Source: Pseudobythopirellula maris (GTDB lineage: Bacteria > Planctomycetota > Planctomycetia > Pirellulales > Lacipirellulaceae). From it: DNA of 64,000 nucleotides. The stretch lies in contig NZ_SJPQ01000002.1 of assembly GCF_007859945.1 (NCBI RefSeq), forward strand, positions 846,279 through 910,278. The letters run 5' to 3'. The position numbers and the translations under genes are program-made. The notes beneath the pieces were generated by a model, which had not been told where the DNA came from, made no database searches, and saw only the letters and a program-made list of their open reading frames with translations. Within the stretch, counting starts at the first letter, position 1; each line of letters begins with the position of its first letter. Shown piece after piece: positions 9,394 through 13,695 of this stretch.

Positions 9394-11580
9394 TCACAGG
9401 ATCATGTCGTAAAAACTCACGCCGCCCGCGGCGGCTTTCTTGATCATCTCGGTTGGCTCGAACCGTTTGCCCAACGGGGCCAGCGGCTCGAGGCGTTTCA
9501 GGATCTCGGCGGCGCCGACGGTGTCGGCCCAGTGGAACAGGCCGCCCTTGTGGGGCGGGAAGCCGACGCCGAGGATCAGCGCGAGGTCGACGTCGCGCAC
9601 GCTCGGCACGATGCCGTCTTCGACGGCCCGGGTCGCCTCGACCAGCATCGGCATCAGCAGGCGATCGGCGAGGTCGTAGTCGCCGGCGGCTTTAGCCTTG
9701 CTGCTCTCAGCTTTCAGGATCTCGCCCGCCTCGGCGCTCGGCGTCTTCTTGGGCGGCTTGCCCCCTTTGCCGGGCGCCCAGTCGTAAAAACCTTTGCCGT
9801 TCTTCTGGCCCAAGCGGCCCGCCTCGACCATCGCGGCGACGGCGCCCGCCGGCTCGACACGGTCGCTGAAGGCGGCGGCCATCACGCGACCGGCGTGCAG
9901 GCAGGTGTCGAGACCGACCACGTCGTGCAGCTCGAGCGGGCCCATCGGCATGCCGAACGCCTTGGCCGTCTTCTCGATCGCCTTGGTCGGAACGCCCTCG
10001 CCCGCCATCAGCGCCGCCTCGTTCATGTACGGCATGAGCAGGCGGTTGACGAGGAACCCGGGGCCGTCGCTGACGACGACCGGCGTCTTGCCGAGCCGGC
10101 GGGCGTAGGCGGCCATCTGGGCGACGGTGGCGTCGGAGGTCTTCTCTCCGCGGATCACCTCCACGAGCGGCATTTTCCGCACGGGGTTGAAGAAGTGCAG
10201 GCCGCAGAAACGCTCCGGATGTTTGAGCCCTTCGGCGAGCTGGGTGATCGGGATCGTCGAGGTGTTCGACGCCAGGATGGTCCGCTCGGTGGCGTGCGGC
10301 TCAAGCGCGGCGAACAGCTCGCGTTTCGCATCGGCCCGCTCGATGATCGCCTCGATGACGACCTCGCACGCGGCGAGCGACTCGGGCGAGGTGGCGGCGT
10401 TGACCAGAGCGCCGCGTTCGATGGCGAGGCCGGCGTCGGCCGATTTGGTCTTTTTGTTGTACGAGACTTCGCGGACCACGCCGGCCACACCGGCGCCGAG
10501 CGCTTCGGCCCTCGTGTCGGAGAGCAGCACCGGCACGCACCGTTTCACGTTGGCCGCGGCGATGCCTTGGCCCATGATGCCGGCGCCGACGACGGCGGCC
10601 GATCGCGGGAAATCCTTGTCGGCCGGCTGATCGCCGGCGACCTTCTTCGCCCGGTCGGTGAGGAAGAAGACGTTCAGCAGCGCCCGGTTCACCGGCGAGC
10701 CGAACAGCGGGGCGAACGCCTCGGCTTCGCTTGCCAGGGCCGCCGTCGCGTCCTGTTGCGACGCCTCGAGCAGCAGCTCCAAGGCGGCCATCGGCGCCGG
10801 GTAATGCCCGCCGGTCTTCTGCTGAACCATGGCGCTCGCCGTGGCGCCGAGGAACGCGAGCTCGGTCTCGCTCTGCGTGATCGGCCCGGCCCAGCGCTCG
10901 CGGTCGGCGAGGTACGCCTTCGATTCTTGTTCCTGCTCGATCAGCCTGACGGCGGCGTCGACCAGGGGCGAGCCGTCGTCGCCCTTCTTCGGGTTCGGGA
11001 CGACGTCGTCCGCCAGGCCCATCGCCTGCGCTTCGTCGGCCGCCACATTATCGCCGCCAGTGATCATCTCCGCGGCGTTCGACAGGCCCACGATCCGCGG
11101 CGCCCGCACCGTGCCGCCCCAGCCGGGGAAGAGGCCGAGCTTCACTTCGGGGAACCCGATCAGGGCCGACTCGGTCACGACGCGGCGGTCACACCACACG
11201 GCGAGCTCCGCCCCGCCGCCGACGCACAGCCCGTTGATCGCGGCCACGGTGACATACGGCGTATTCGCCAATCGCTCGAACAGCAGCTGCCCGCGGCGGC
11301 TGACCTGGACGATCTCGTCCTTCGGTTGGTCGAGCCCGGCGACGAACTCGGTGAGGTCGGCGCCGGCGATAAAGCCGCTCGGCTTGCCGCTCACGATCAC
11401 CAGGCCGCGGAGGTCTTTTTGCTTTTCGAGCTCATCGAGCCGGCCGGCGATCTCCTCCATCACGCGGGTGGAGAGGATGTTGACCGAGCGGTCGGGGCAG
11501 TCGAGTGTGAGCACCGCCACGCCGCCCGCGCGCAGGTCGAGCCGAGTCGCTGGGGCGTTGTTTTGCGCCGGGGTCGCCAT
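9394..11580 (-). CDS. fadB: Enoyl-CoA hydratase / 3-hydroxyacyl-CoA dehydrogenase, trifunctional alpha subunit
   Basis: 728 residues from ATG 11580 (MATPAQNNAP); the frame runs 138 codons further upstream but without family similarity. The N-terminal crotonase domain has the oxyanion loop SGFIAGADLTEF and both catalytic glutamates (E125 in GGGAE, E145 in GFPEVKLG). The NAD-binding domain starts at VGAGIMGQGI (G332-x-G334-x-x-G337), followed by the ASNTSTIPI and HFFNPVRKMPLVEV signatures of 3-hydroxyacyl-CoA dehydrogenases. It hydrates enoyl-CoA and oxidises the hydroxy product during fatty-acid oxidation. With fadA it makes a fadBA operon read leftwards; the length is normal for FadB/FadJ. 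Confidence 0.93.
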   Translation of the reverse strand: MATPAQNNAPATRLDLRAGGVAVLTLDCPDRSVNILSTRVMEEIAGRLDELEKQKDLRGLVIVSGKPSGFIAGADLTEFVAGLDQPKDEIVQVSRRGQLLFERLANTPYVTVAAINGLCVGGGAELAVWCDRRVVTESALIGFPEVKLGLFPGWGGTVRAPRIVGLSNAAEMITGGDNVAADEAQAMGLADDVVPNPKKGDDGSPLVDAAVRLIEQEQESKAYLADRERWAGPITQSETELAFLGATASAMVQQKTGGHYPAPMAALELLLEASQQDATAALASEAEAFAPLFGSPVNRALLNVFFLTDRAKKVAGDQPADKDFPRSAAVVGAGIMGQGIAAANVKRCVPVLLSDTRAEALGAGVAGVVREVSYNKKTKSADAGLAIERGALVNAATSPESLAACEVVIEAIIERADAKRELFAALEPHATERTILASNTSTIPITQLAEGLKHPERFCGLHFFNPVRKMPLVEVIRGEKTSDATVAQMAAYARRLGKTPVVVSDGPGFLVNRLLMPYMNEAALMAGEGVPTKAIEKTAKAFGMPMGPLELHDVVGLDTCLHAGRVMAAAFSDRVEPAGAVAAMVEAGRLGQKNGKGFYDWAPGKGGKPPKKTPSAEAGEILKAESSKAKAAGDYDLADRLLMPMLVEATRAVEDGIVPSVRDVDLALILGVGFPPHKGGLFHWADTVGAAEILKRLEPLAPLGKRFEPTEMIKKAAAGGVSFYDMIL

Positions 11581-11855: not shown

Positions 11856-12335
11856 ATGGACACCACGCCGTCAACCGCCCAACCGACCCGCTCCTGGCGC
11901 CTGCCTGCGGCGCTGCTGCTTGTTTTGCTGATGGTGCTACTGGCCCGGGCGTGGGCGCCCGCCTTGCAGAGCGGCGTCGCGACGCCGCCGGCACTCGATC
12001 CGGCCGCTGTGGTCGGCGTGGTTACCCTCGCCGCCGAGGTCGATGGGGAGCCCCCCGCCCCCCTTCCGCCCGAGGTCGAGGCCTCGGTCGGGGCCGAGAC
12101 GACCGCGCTCGACGCCCTGCTGGCGGCGGGCCGCGAGTCGGACGCCTGGCGCGTCGAATACCGCGGCGAGGGGGCGATGGCGTTCGTCGAGTCGATCGGC
12201 GGCGCCACGAACGAGGGCCCCGACGGCCGCAACTGGCGGTTTGAGGTCAACGGCGTCGAGGCGGACCGCGGCGCCGGCGCCACGCCTGTCTCGCCGGGGG
12301 ACCGAGTCTTGTGGCGGTTCACCCAATTTCAGTAG
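11856..12335 (+). CDS. DUF4430 (transcobalamin-like) domain protein, membrane anchored
   Basis: 159 residues from ATG 11856 (MDTTPSTAQP); the frame is open from 11775, but that part overlaps the palindromic repeat. One membrane helix at about residues 17-33 anchors or exports it. After a Pro-rich linker, the C-terminal 75 residues match DUF4430, the small beta-grasp-like domain of the transcobalamin C-terminus: ALDALLAAG, then FVESIGGATN, WRFEVNGV and GDRVLWRF. In other bacteria such domains are displayed next to vitamin transporters. The next gene encodes an S-component-like membrane protein only 66 bases away, so a role in capturing a small ligand is plausible. No cobalamin riboswitch is visible. 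Confidence 0.75.
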   Translation: MDTTPSTAQPTRSWRLPAALLLVLLMVLLARAWAPALQSGVATPPALDPAAVVGVVTLAAEVDGEPPAPLPPEVEASVGAETTALDALLAAGRESDAWRVEYRGEGAMAFVESIGGATNEGPDGRNWRFEVNGVEADRGAGATPVSPGDRVLWRFTQFQ

Positions 12336-12401
12336 ACTACTCGGCGGTAGAATGCCGAGTCCTTCTAGTTTGCCTGTTTTAGTTTGTCTCTTTCGACACA
12401 T

Positions 12402-12971
12402 ATGGATCCTGTGATGCCCGCCCTCCGCGCCCGCTCGACTGAAATCGCCGTTTTCGCGTTGCTCGTGGCGATCGGCGTTGCCGGCCGCTGGGGCCAGCCC
12501 GACTGGTGCGTCACGCCGCTGGCGGCCGTCGGCCTGTTCGCGGGACGCTACTTCGCCAGCCGCTCGGTCGCGATGCTCGTGCCGCTCACAGCGATGCTCG
12601 TCTCCGACCTGGCGTTGCCCGCCTACGCCAACCGCGGCGTGATGCTCGCCGTGTACGCCGCCATGGTGCTCCCGCCGCTGCTAGGCCGGTTGCTCCGCAA
12701 CGACCGCCTGTCGCGCCCCGCTTGGCTCGGTCGCTTGGCGGCCGGCGCCGTCGCGCCCTCGGTCGTGTTCTTTCTCGTGACGAACTTCGCGTACTGGTCG
12801 CTCGGCAGCCTCTACCCGCACACCGGCGCAGGGCTCATGGCGTGCTACGCGGCGGCCGTGCCGTTCTTCCGGGCGATGCTCACGGGCGACGTGGTCTACA
12901 CGGCGCTGGTGTTCGGCGCGGCGATGCTCGCCGGCATGCGGGCGCCGCAAGCGGCGCCGGCCCGCGGCTAA
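12402..12971 (+). CDS. Membrane protein resembling an ECF S component (DUF6580-like)
   Basis: 189 residues from ATG 12402, with about five hydrophobic helices. The first region has the pattern VAIGVAGRWG, then TPLAAVGLFAGRYF and MLVSDLAL, which fits the DUF6580 family (N-P.ga..lfaG.yf...lP...m..sD). That family resembles the substrate-binding S components of energy-coupling-factor transporters. No ATPase or T component is present nearby, so it would have to share one. It follows the DUF4430 gene and probably shares its transcript. Substrate unknown. Confidence 0.7.
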   Translation: MDPVMPALRARSTEIAVFALLVAIGVAGRWGQPDWCVTPLAAVGLFAGRYFASRSVAMLVPLTAMLVSDLALPAYANRGVMLAVYAAMVLPPLLGRLLRNDRLSRPAWLGRLAAGAVAPSVVFFLVTNFAYWSLGSLYPHTGAGLMACYAAAVPFFRAMLTGDVVYTALVFGAAMLAGMRAPQAAPARG

Positions 12972-13164: not shown

Positions 13165-13695
13165 TTAGTTCCACGGCCCCTTGGGCGCTGGCGGGCCGTC
13201 GATCAGGTCGTCCACGCCTTCGTCGTCTTCGGGCGGCTCTAGTTCAAAATCTTCGCGCTCCACGAGCGGCTCGAGCCGCTTGAGCTCGTACGAGGCGAAT
13301 TGCTTCTCGTACAGCGTGCCGTCGGCCACAGTGAGCTCGTAGCGCATGGCGCCCTCGGTCTCGTCCCACAGCCGCTCGCGGATGAAGCCGATCACCGGGT
13401 CGTTCTTCATGCCCAAAGGGCGGACCGACACTTCGTCACCGATCTCCCACCCCTCGGGCTCGACCTCGCACCACAGCGTGCGTCGCACACGGAGGCGCTC
13501 GTCGCCGTAGTGGAGGATGACGTAGGGGCCTTCTTGGCCGTCGCGGCGCCAAACGCGGGGGCCGGGAATGACTCCCTTGGCCCGCTCGCGGTCGTCCGGG
13601 TGGACCCACTCGTCGCTCGATTCGCCCGGGGGCGTCTTGGGCCACCAGGGGTAGTAACCGAAAGCGGGGTCGTTGTTGATCGGCGGCAGCGTCAT
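13165..13695 (-). CDS. Conserved hypothetical acidic protein
   Basis: 176 residues, not recognised. The N-terminal half is rich in Trp, Pro and Tyr (AFGYYPWWPKTPPGESSDEW). The middle looks beta-rich (YVILHYGDERLRVRRTLWCEV, then GDEVSVRP), and the C-terminal 30 residues are very acidic with a Pro-rich end (EPPEDDEGVDDL). No signal peptide or membrane segment. It may be a small SH3/Tudor-like beta barrel, which is only a guess from the strand pattern. It is transcribed leftwards, divergent from the KAP-like gene. Confidence 0.65.
   Translation of the reverse strand: MTLPPINNDPAFGYYPWWPKTPPGESSDEWVHPDDRERAKGVIPGPRVWRRDGQEGPYVILHYGDERLRVRRTLWCEVEPEGWEIGDEVSVRPLGMKNDPVIGFIRERLWDETEGAMRYELTVADGTLYEKQFASYELKRLEPLVEREDFELEPPEDDEGVDDLIDGPPAPKGPWN

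Follow-up and report, generated by a model that had tools for sequence, protein, structure and literature searches.

A membrane-anchored, transcobalamin-like DUF4430 protein and an S-component-like DUF6580 protein form a proposed ECF-module-free corrinoid uptake pair in planctomycetes

The DNA analysed here, which we call the window, is a stretch of 64,000 nucleotides from Pseudobythopirellula maris (order Pirellulales, family Lacipirellulaceae). It carries a gene for a DUF4430 protein followed, after 66 bp and on the same forward strand, by a gene for a DUF6580 membrane protein (Table 1); NCBIfam returned no match for either protein. The terminator-like hairpin between the two genes has a fold z of -1.24, and three such sites were found in the region vs. 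1.2 expected. None of the three scanned neighbouring genes was read as an ECF ATPase, in agreement with the preliminary description of the locus, which had seen no ATPase nearby; the survey given below extends this to EcfT, which was not found in the genome. In the P-loop protein downstream of the pair, two hydrophobic stretches were spotted by eye.

Table 1. Features of the gene pair and of its scanned neighbours, in window positions.
Feature	Position	Strand	Basis and remarks
Fatty-acid oxidation protein	9394-11559	opposite to pair	Pfam scan
DUF4430 protein, 159 aa	11856..12335	+	Pfam PF14478, 45.6 bits (cut-off 23.8)
Single hydrophobic helix of DUF4430 protein, residues 15-32	11898..11951	+	AlphaFold2 and hydrophobicity scan
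DUF4430 domain, residues 83-156	12102..12323	+	Pfam
Terminator-like hairpin between the two genes	12339..12360	+	pattern scan; weak
DUF6580 membrane protein, 189 aa	12402..12971	+	Pfam PF20221, residues 13-182, 141.8 bits (cut-off 27)
Cys148 codon, in short helix 142-151 (AlphaFold2)	12843..12845	+	assigned to outer loop 5; speculative candidate cobalt ligand
DUF6960-like protein	13165-13695	opposite to pair	Pfam scan; weak match
P-loop protein, 502 aa	13877-15385		Pfam AAA matches below cut-off only

The AlphaFold2 model of the DUF4430 protein (pLDDT 87.7) was compared with known structures. In VIA-align, rows 1-14 are all haptocorrin, intrinsic factor or transcobalamin (Z 15.0 to 13.4), with best values of 15.0, 14.5 and 14.0 for the three carriers, respectively; among individual entries, 4kki reaches 15.0 and 5np4 13.8. 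Below these B12 carriers come 3u7z (Z 12.8) and then SAMP1 (9.1). Foldseek places 3u7z, a putative metal-binding protein from Ruminococcus, first, followed by intrinsic factor and transcobalamin, and in a search using sequence only the B12 carriers match weakly (E 0.064 or worse). By these computations, the modelled DUF4430 domain shares its beta-grasp fold with the beta domain that binds B12 in transcobalamin and intrinsic factor, and the earlier reading of a membrane-anchored transcobalamin-like domain is borne out. We propose that the protein consists of an N-terminal membrane anchor and a transcobalamin-beta-like domain, and that it acts as an external corrinoid-capture partner. A lipobox scan found no lipobox in the window's protein; by a crude rule, 43 aligned DUF4430 proteins divide into 9 with a lipobox, 29 with a signal or anchor helix, and 5 with neither at the chosen start (alignment A2 omits L136, L138, L141 and L146, which have short starts).

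For the DUF6580 protein, AlphaFold2 run from 73 alignment rows gave a model with pLDDT 94.7 and pTM 0.89. In VIA-align 2, every one of rows 1-20, at Z 13.6 to 9.5, is an S component or the S chain of an ECF complex, the latter recognised from entry titles and chain letters. The best match is 8c7p, BtuM with cyanocobalamin (Z 13.6, 166 aligned, rmsd 3.1 Å, 19% identity in the structural alignment), and the first row that is not an S component is a methane monooxygenase subunit at Z 7.3; a Z of 13.6 lies near the level that helical bundles reach by arrangement alone, and the drop to the non-S rows is large. In Foldseek, rows 1 and 2 are BtuM with cyanocobalamin and with hydroxycobalamin (E 3.1e-3 and 2.5e-2); the top rows have a probability of 1.00, yet the E of every row is above 0.001. 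We regard the S-component fold as firm at the level of the model, so that the earlier label of a DUF6580/S-component-like protein holds. The predicted fold by itself does not single out the ligand; ThiT for thiamin (13.4), RibU for riboflavin (13.0) and a biotin S component (13.0) all lie within one Z unit of BtuM. When the 73-row DUF6580 profile was run against the PDB, the sole convincing chain was 6fnp_A (E 9.9e-8 over 167 positions); the remaining three chains have E from 0.77 to 1, and BtuM chains are missing at E <= 10. From its 182 aa and its name, 'Membrane protein', we take 6fnp_A to be CbrT. Entry 6FNP shows the vitamin B12 transporter ECF-CbrT as a crystal structure (PMC5997447, available part). 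We propose that the DUF6580 protein is a solitary carrier of cobalamin or another corrinoid. Alignment A1 leaves out L147, whose reading frame is extended to 403 aa.

Residue conservation was assessed over 239 distinct DUF6580 sequences besides that of the window, after removal of short sequences and duplicates. Arg29 is retained in 232 of them, Asn128 in 238, Tyr138 in 234 and Pro154 in 236. Known S components have their N-terminus inside and hold the ligand at outer loops 1 and 5; with its N-terminus inside, the modelled protein would have Arg29, Tyr138 and Cys148 at these two loops (the loop numbering is our own assignment, in which loop 1 holds Cys36 and loop 5 holds Cys148). Cysteine occupies position 148 in 69 of 74 planctomycete sequences, in 63 of 77 from the wide scan and in 44 of 88 from the far phylum (both sets are described below); with 176 of 239 in all, a role as universal cobalt ligand was rejected. 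A PHPPN motif, present in most DUF6580 proteins, is missing from the protein of the window (residues 35-37, positions 12504-12512), where Cys36 stands at the position of the Asn, as it does in 8 of the 74 other planctomycete sequences. The His of the motif (His34) is mostly replaced in planctomycetes, being kept in 15 of 74, and the ligand could thus have drifted. The stretch that joins helices 54-71 and 78-87 (residues 72-77) contains no cysteine; the protein is in this respect unlike BtuM, whose essential Cys80, the axial cobalt ligand, is in loop 3 (PMC6072759, available part).

DUF4430 was detected in 23 and DUF6580 in 25 of 343 genomes sampled across the phylum, and in 50 and 98, respectively, of 146 genomes of the order. 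Within the order, a DUF6580 gene follows downstream on the same strand for 45 of the 50 DUF4430 genes, and in the window's family every genome of this sample has the adjacent pair (23/23). The domain matches are separated by 56-234 bp in 44 of the 45 pairs and by 829 bp in the other (G405), while the stop-to-start distance is below 110 bp in 36 of 40 measured pairs; a rough expectation from random placement, with genomes assumed to be 5.5 Mb, is about 0.007. As to the five non-adjacent genes, DUF6580 is on another contig in four genomes (G472, G360, G452, G274), and G448 is without DUF6580. A home-made DUF4430 profile recovered one extra adjacent gene (L158), which lies under the Pfam cut-off. 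Of the 98 genomes of the order that have DUF6580, 53 show no Pfam-detected DUF4430 next door, so DUF6580 can occur alone. Genome G370 has two copies, L192, whose riboswitch run also contains DUF1559 and DUF71, and L114, paired with DUF4430, which amounts to a natural test of specialisation.

The pair is also found in distant bacteria. A locus of Candidatus Woesebacteria (L270) contains, in this order, ribonucleotide reductase, CobA/CobO/BtuR, a cobalamin riboswitch, DUF4430 (63.6 bits) and DUF6580 (190.8 bits); one of Candidatus Levyibacteriota (L247) contains, likewise in order, ribonucleotide reductase, an AdoCbl-II riboswitch, DUF4430 (51.7 bits), DUF6580 (178.4 bits) and a PduO-type adenosyltransferase. 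DUF6580 is present in 105 of 379 genomes of the phylum to which the genome of L270 belongs. With a DUF4430 profile widened by the L270 and L247 proteins, DUF4430 was found upstream of DUF6580, on the same strand and within 1.2 kb, in 64 of the 90 far-phylum loci examined, which reach 1.5 to 3 kb to each side. A survey of co-occurrence, as the preliminary description had proposed, thus finds the homologues usually adjacent (45/50 in the order, 64/90 in the far phylum), and a chance neighbourhood of the two genes was rejected on these figures. Called by similarity to the L270 and L247 proteins, CobO-like genes lie near 45 of the 90 far-phylum loci, PduO-like genes near 10 and RNR-like genes, with the RNR class left unassigned, near 45. 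Among the 30 best-scoring far-phylum loci, seven have a cobalamin-class riboswitch according to Rfam (one of them, L275, is L270), and the pair follows it in each. Our own riboswitch model, R1, matches 17 of the 90 loci at E <= 1e-3, five of which are in the alignment of the model itself (L280, L289, L291, L297 and L275, again L270); the 60 loci beyond the 30 best-scoring ones were scanned with R1 only. At L239:2046-4044, the genes for DUF6580 and a PduO-type adenosyltransferase are accompanied by one gene for a toroid (Prenyltrans) protein and another for a DUF4430 protein; here the two halves of transcobalamin are neighbouring genes.

A tree of DUF6580 was built by a quick search from a chosen subset of 142 rows. 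It groups the window and other paired loci of the order with the riboswitch-linked L155 in a group of 53 rows (SH-aLRT 83, not starred), and it places 21 of 27 far-phylum pairs in another group (85); the pair label takes 12 changes on the tree. The pair may have arisen once, long ago, and been lost in places, or it may have arisen more than once.

Cobalamin riboswitches near the pair, for which the preliminary description had suggested a search, were absent near the window's own pair and present among its relatives. None was found in the 64,000 nucleotides of the window, nor within about 7 kb of any of 40 further paired loci of the order. The loci scanned, of about 14 kb each, cover 40 of the 45 paired genomes (G446, G458, G474 and G477 were left out, and G000 is the window's own) and 24 of the 53 unpaired ones. 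Riboswitch control of the window's pair is therefore rejected; the ligand of this pair is read from its kin, and the link of its lineage to B12 runs only through that kinship and the phyletic pattern. In one other member of the family (G387), a DUF4465-like gene (L129:12051-13187) lies about 4.5 kb downstream of the pair, the sole case among the 40 paired loci.

At least four riboswitch-linked copies of DUF6580 do occur in the order, namely in G453 (L151), G452 (L155), G479 (L154/L191) and, as a second copy, G370 (L192); distances across the order are those of the 150 riboswitch matches listed, under stricter filters. Three of these four runs contain a Diphthami_syn_2 (DUF71) gene, and the other 21 unpaired DUF6580 loci scanned have no riboswitch match. 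In the run of G479, a cation-efflux gene (L191:4085-5044) follows DUF6580 and possibly has to do with metal handling. Outside the order, nine planctomycete loci were fetched from the 18 genomes found, and six of them (L177, L178, L179, L180, L182, L183) have a riboswitch upstream, whose end is 13 bp from the DUF6580 gene in L183 and 175 bp in L178; the order in L178 is riboswitch, DUF6580, CobT (PF02277), CobS (PF02654).

A wide scan of species genomes was made with a PHPPN-type profile, and the best 80 of at least 560 confirmed loci, which lean to the PHPPN type, were searched for riboswitches. Thirty of these 80 have one of the cobalamin class (29 RF00174 and one RF01689, the latter, in L247, marginal at 36.8 bits vs. 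a cut-off of 36.5), where about 0.12 would be expected by chance at an assumed density of 1.3 per 5.5-Mb genome. It is upstream on the same strand in 26 loci, on the opposite strand in two (L207, L259) and downstream only in two (L198, L223); the genes between riboswitch and DUF6580 were read in part of these loci only. The remaining Rfam matches in the best 80 are three tRNAs. A DUF71 gene, scored at the level of the family and not of the subgroup, is near 19 of the 80; in one subgroup of DUF71, 75 of 102 genes have a B12 transporter gene next to them (PMC3541065, available part). The locus sets overlap (L222 is L151, L270 is L275, L272 is L182, L195 is L181, and L230 and L231 are near-identical), so that counts across sets are not independent.

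The window's genome has, among the matches listed, a single cobalamin riboswitch (G000:C1:1829016-1829264), apart from the pair. Behind it (L190:7017-10126) are genes for a DUF1559 pilin-like protein, a DUF4465-like dockerin protein and a PEP-CTERM protein. The DUF4465-like call rests on a phmmer match (E 7e-18) to the DUF4465 protein of a relative and was not made by Pfam; the relatives L193 and L194 have clear DUF4465 matches (179.9 and 167.4 bits). DUF4465 proteins bind B12 (PMC13398666, available part). With a riboswitch at the head of such a run, the genome evidently regulates a B12-related set of genes, and the pair is separate from it.

Need for B12 and other routes of import were followed with marker domains, MetH being one marker of B12 use and CbiC one of corrin synthesis. 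The B12 activation domain of MetH was found in 39 of 43 family genomes including that of the window (E 4.2e-126), whereas the corrin-ring enzyme CbiC was found in none of the 43, the window's included, and in 7 of 14 control genomes. EcfT (PF02361) is absent from all 23 family genomes surveyed, among them the window's (G000, 96.5% complete), a survey that covered the EcfT subunit; an ECF module elsewhere in the window's genome was rejected on this ground. Across the order EcfT occurs in 39 of 146 genomes, and in 4 of the 98 with DUF6580. A strong FecCD permease (best E < 1e-40, a line drawn by eye) occurs in 30 of 146 genomes, of which G348 and G470 belong to the family. A BtuC-type permease in the window's genome was considered and rejected, the sole weak FecCD match being a PF00950 ABC-3 metal permease with an ABC ATPase gene before it.

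Taken over the 146 genomes of the order, 86 have DUF6580 only, 41 have EcfT or strong FecCD only, 12 have both and 7 have neither (Fisher p 2.6e-18, kinship ignored; CbiQ/EcfT may serve cobalt or nickel, which weakens this test of complementarity). Forty of the 45 paired genomes are without EcfT or strong FecCD, the exceptions being EcfT in G386 and strong FecCD in G121, G348, G428 and G470; G453, with a riboswitch-linked DUF6580, has both. In the wide scan, EcfT was found in 6 of 31 genomes, that is, in 5 of 30 with a riboswitch near DUF6580 and in the genome of L239.

We consider it likely that the pair works as a unit that takes up cobalamin or another corrinoid at the inner membrane without an ECF module. 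That the ligand is a corrinoid is in our view very probable and, if it is, we hold it equally probable that no ECF module is used; a hand-off of the corrinoid from DUF4430 to DUF6580 is somewhat favoured. The two-gene module for capture of a small ligand that the preliminary description had put forward is supported in this form, with the ligand narrowed to cobalamin or a related corrinoid. In its widest form, the proposal is of a widespread, two-protein importer without an ATPase, in which a solitary S-component receives corrinoid from a membrane-tethered transcobalamin-like domain, and which would be the main B12 route for a large part of the planctomycete order and for many minimal-genome bacteria with B12-dependent RNR; to this we give an even chance.

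Mechanistically, the anchored DUF4430 domain would catch the corrinoid outside the inner membrane and pass it to the S-component DUF6580, which would topple to bring it through the membrane, the movement proposed for BtuM; import might be driven by trapping inside, through adenosylation or binding to MetH, and not by ATP. For BtuM, which functions without an ECF module, toppling, facilitated diffusion and trapping by BtuR were proposed by its authors, and E. coli is without an ECF module (PMC6072759, available part). In transcobalamin, the beta domain shares B12 with the toroid domain (PMC1796856, available part); we speculate that the outer face of the S-component may replace the toroid as the second half of the B12 grip.

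Several known systems resemble the pair in part. Like BtuM of Thiobacillus denitrificans, its best fold match, the DUF6580 protein is a small membrane protein of S fold in an organism in which EcfT was not found, and its far relatives are often near genes for corrinoid adenosyltransferases, as counted above; no btuR or other B12 gene of the kind next to BtuM was seen beside the window's pair among the scanned neighbours. BtuM is described without accessory components (PMC6072759, available part), whereas DUF6580 is here accompanied by the DUF4430 protein. CbrT, the S component of ECF-CbrT, is the one convincing profile match in the PDB, but it depends on an ECF module (PMC5997447, available part), in contrast to a protein whose genome yielded no EcfT. 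The DUF4430 protein has the domain and the fold of the transcobalamin-like SLBB clade, which has planctomycete members; the operons of that clade have CbiO/CbiQ-type genes (PMC1796856, available part), whereas the partner here is DUF6580 and genes of the CbiO/CbiQ type were not found. With the ABC importer BtuCDF the pair shares the proposed cargo, in a genome whose one weak FecCD match is an ABC-3 metal permease and not of the BtuC type. DUF4465 proteins (BtuJ) are, similarly, secreted B12 binders (PMC13398666, available part) with a homologue in the riboswitch operon of the same genome, but they belong to another family and another locus, outside the pair.

Other readings have to be weighed. 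The planctomycete pair might keep the architecture of a B12 carrier for a shifted ligand (cobinamide only, another cobamide, a tetrapyrrole or a vitamin), which we judge unlikely. The lack of riboswitches at 40 of 40 paired loci scanned, the frequent loss of His34 together with Cys in place of Asn at residue 36 in the window and 8 of 74 planctomycete sequences, the position of the genome's one listed riboswitch match at the head of another operon, and the closeness of the thiamin, riboflavin and biotin rows to BtuM would all fit such a shift; they are countered by a family whose genomes mostly have MetH and in no case CbiC, by the 40 of 45 paired genomes without EcfT or strong FecCD, by the riboswitch-linked L155 in the window's own tree group, and by far-phylum pairs that come after riboswitches. 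It is improbable that DUF6580 is an ordinary S component docking on an ECF module encoded elsewhere: EcfT is found in none of 23 genomes of its family and, across the order, in 4 of the 98 that have DUF6580, even though the fold and the sequence similarity to the CbrT entry, the need of CbrT for its module (PMC5997447, available part) and the EcfT genes in 6 of 31 wide-scan genomes point that way.

The S-component fold is common to sensor proteins as well (PMC11109136, available part), and the pair encodes no energy source, so one could imagine that it senses B12 instead of importing it. This we consider highly improbable, as Pfam matched no signalling domain in either protein, the neighbouring genes of relatives encode salvage or B12-using enzymes, and the genome would then be without any B12 importer of the kinds searched for (EcfT, FecCD). 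That the two genes are adjacent without a joint role, as the many genomes with DUF6580 and no adjacent DUF4430 might suggest, is the least credible reading, given their adjacency in 45 of 50 and 64 of 90 cases in two distant groups.

Corrinoid uptake by the pair without an ECF module, the reading we prefer, has a forerunner in a prediction of 2007 that transcobalamin-like proteins of Gram-positives, planctomycetes and some archaea scavenge B12 together with CbiO/CbiQ genes (PMC1796856, available part). The module had been thought to be undescribed in planctomycetes. This stands for the pairing with DUF6580, in that no description of DUF6580 or of the DUF4430-DUF6580 pair was found in the available text of the literature searched, a scope outside which subscription papers, preprints and database notes fall; it does not stand for transcobalamin-like domains as such, since the 2007 paper lists planctomycete examples and predicts B12 scavenging for the clade. 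In a survey of S-component folds, the string DUF is absent from the main text (PMC11109136).

The analysis thus proposes a function for DUF6580, a family with loci in more than ten phyla as judged from record titles, and gives DUF4430 a partner. If true, an S-component would have a dedicated external substrate-binding partner, and the pair offers a test case for ATP-free transport by a solitary S-component, with and without a capture protein. That capture and carrier are encoded as separate proteins, and that L239 has a separate toroid, bears on the origin of animal transcobalamin and intrinsic factor. For planctomycetes, and for bacteria with tiny genomes that are without BtuCDF or ECF modules, the pair is a possible answer to the question of how they are supplied with B12.
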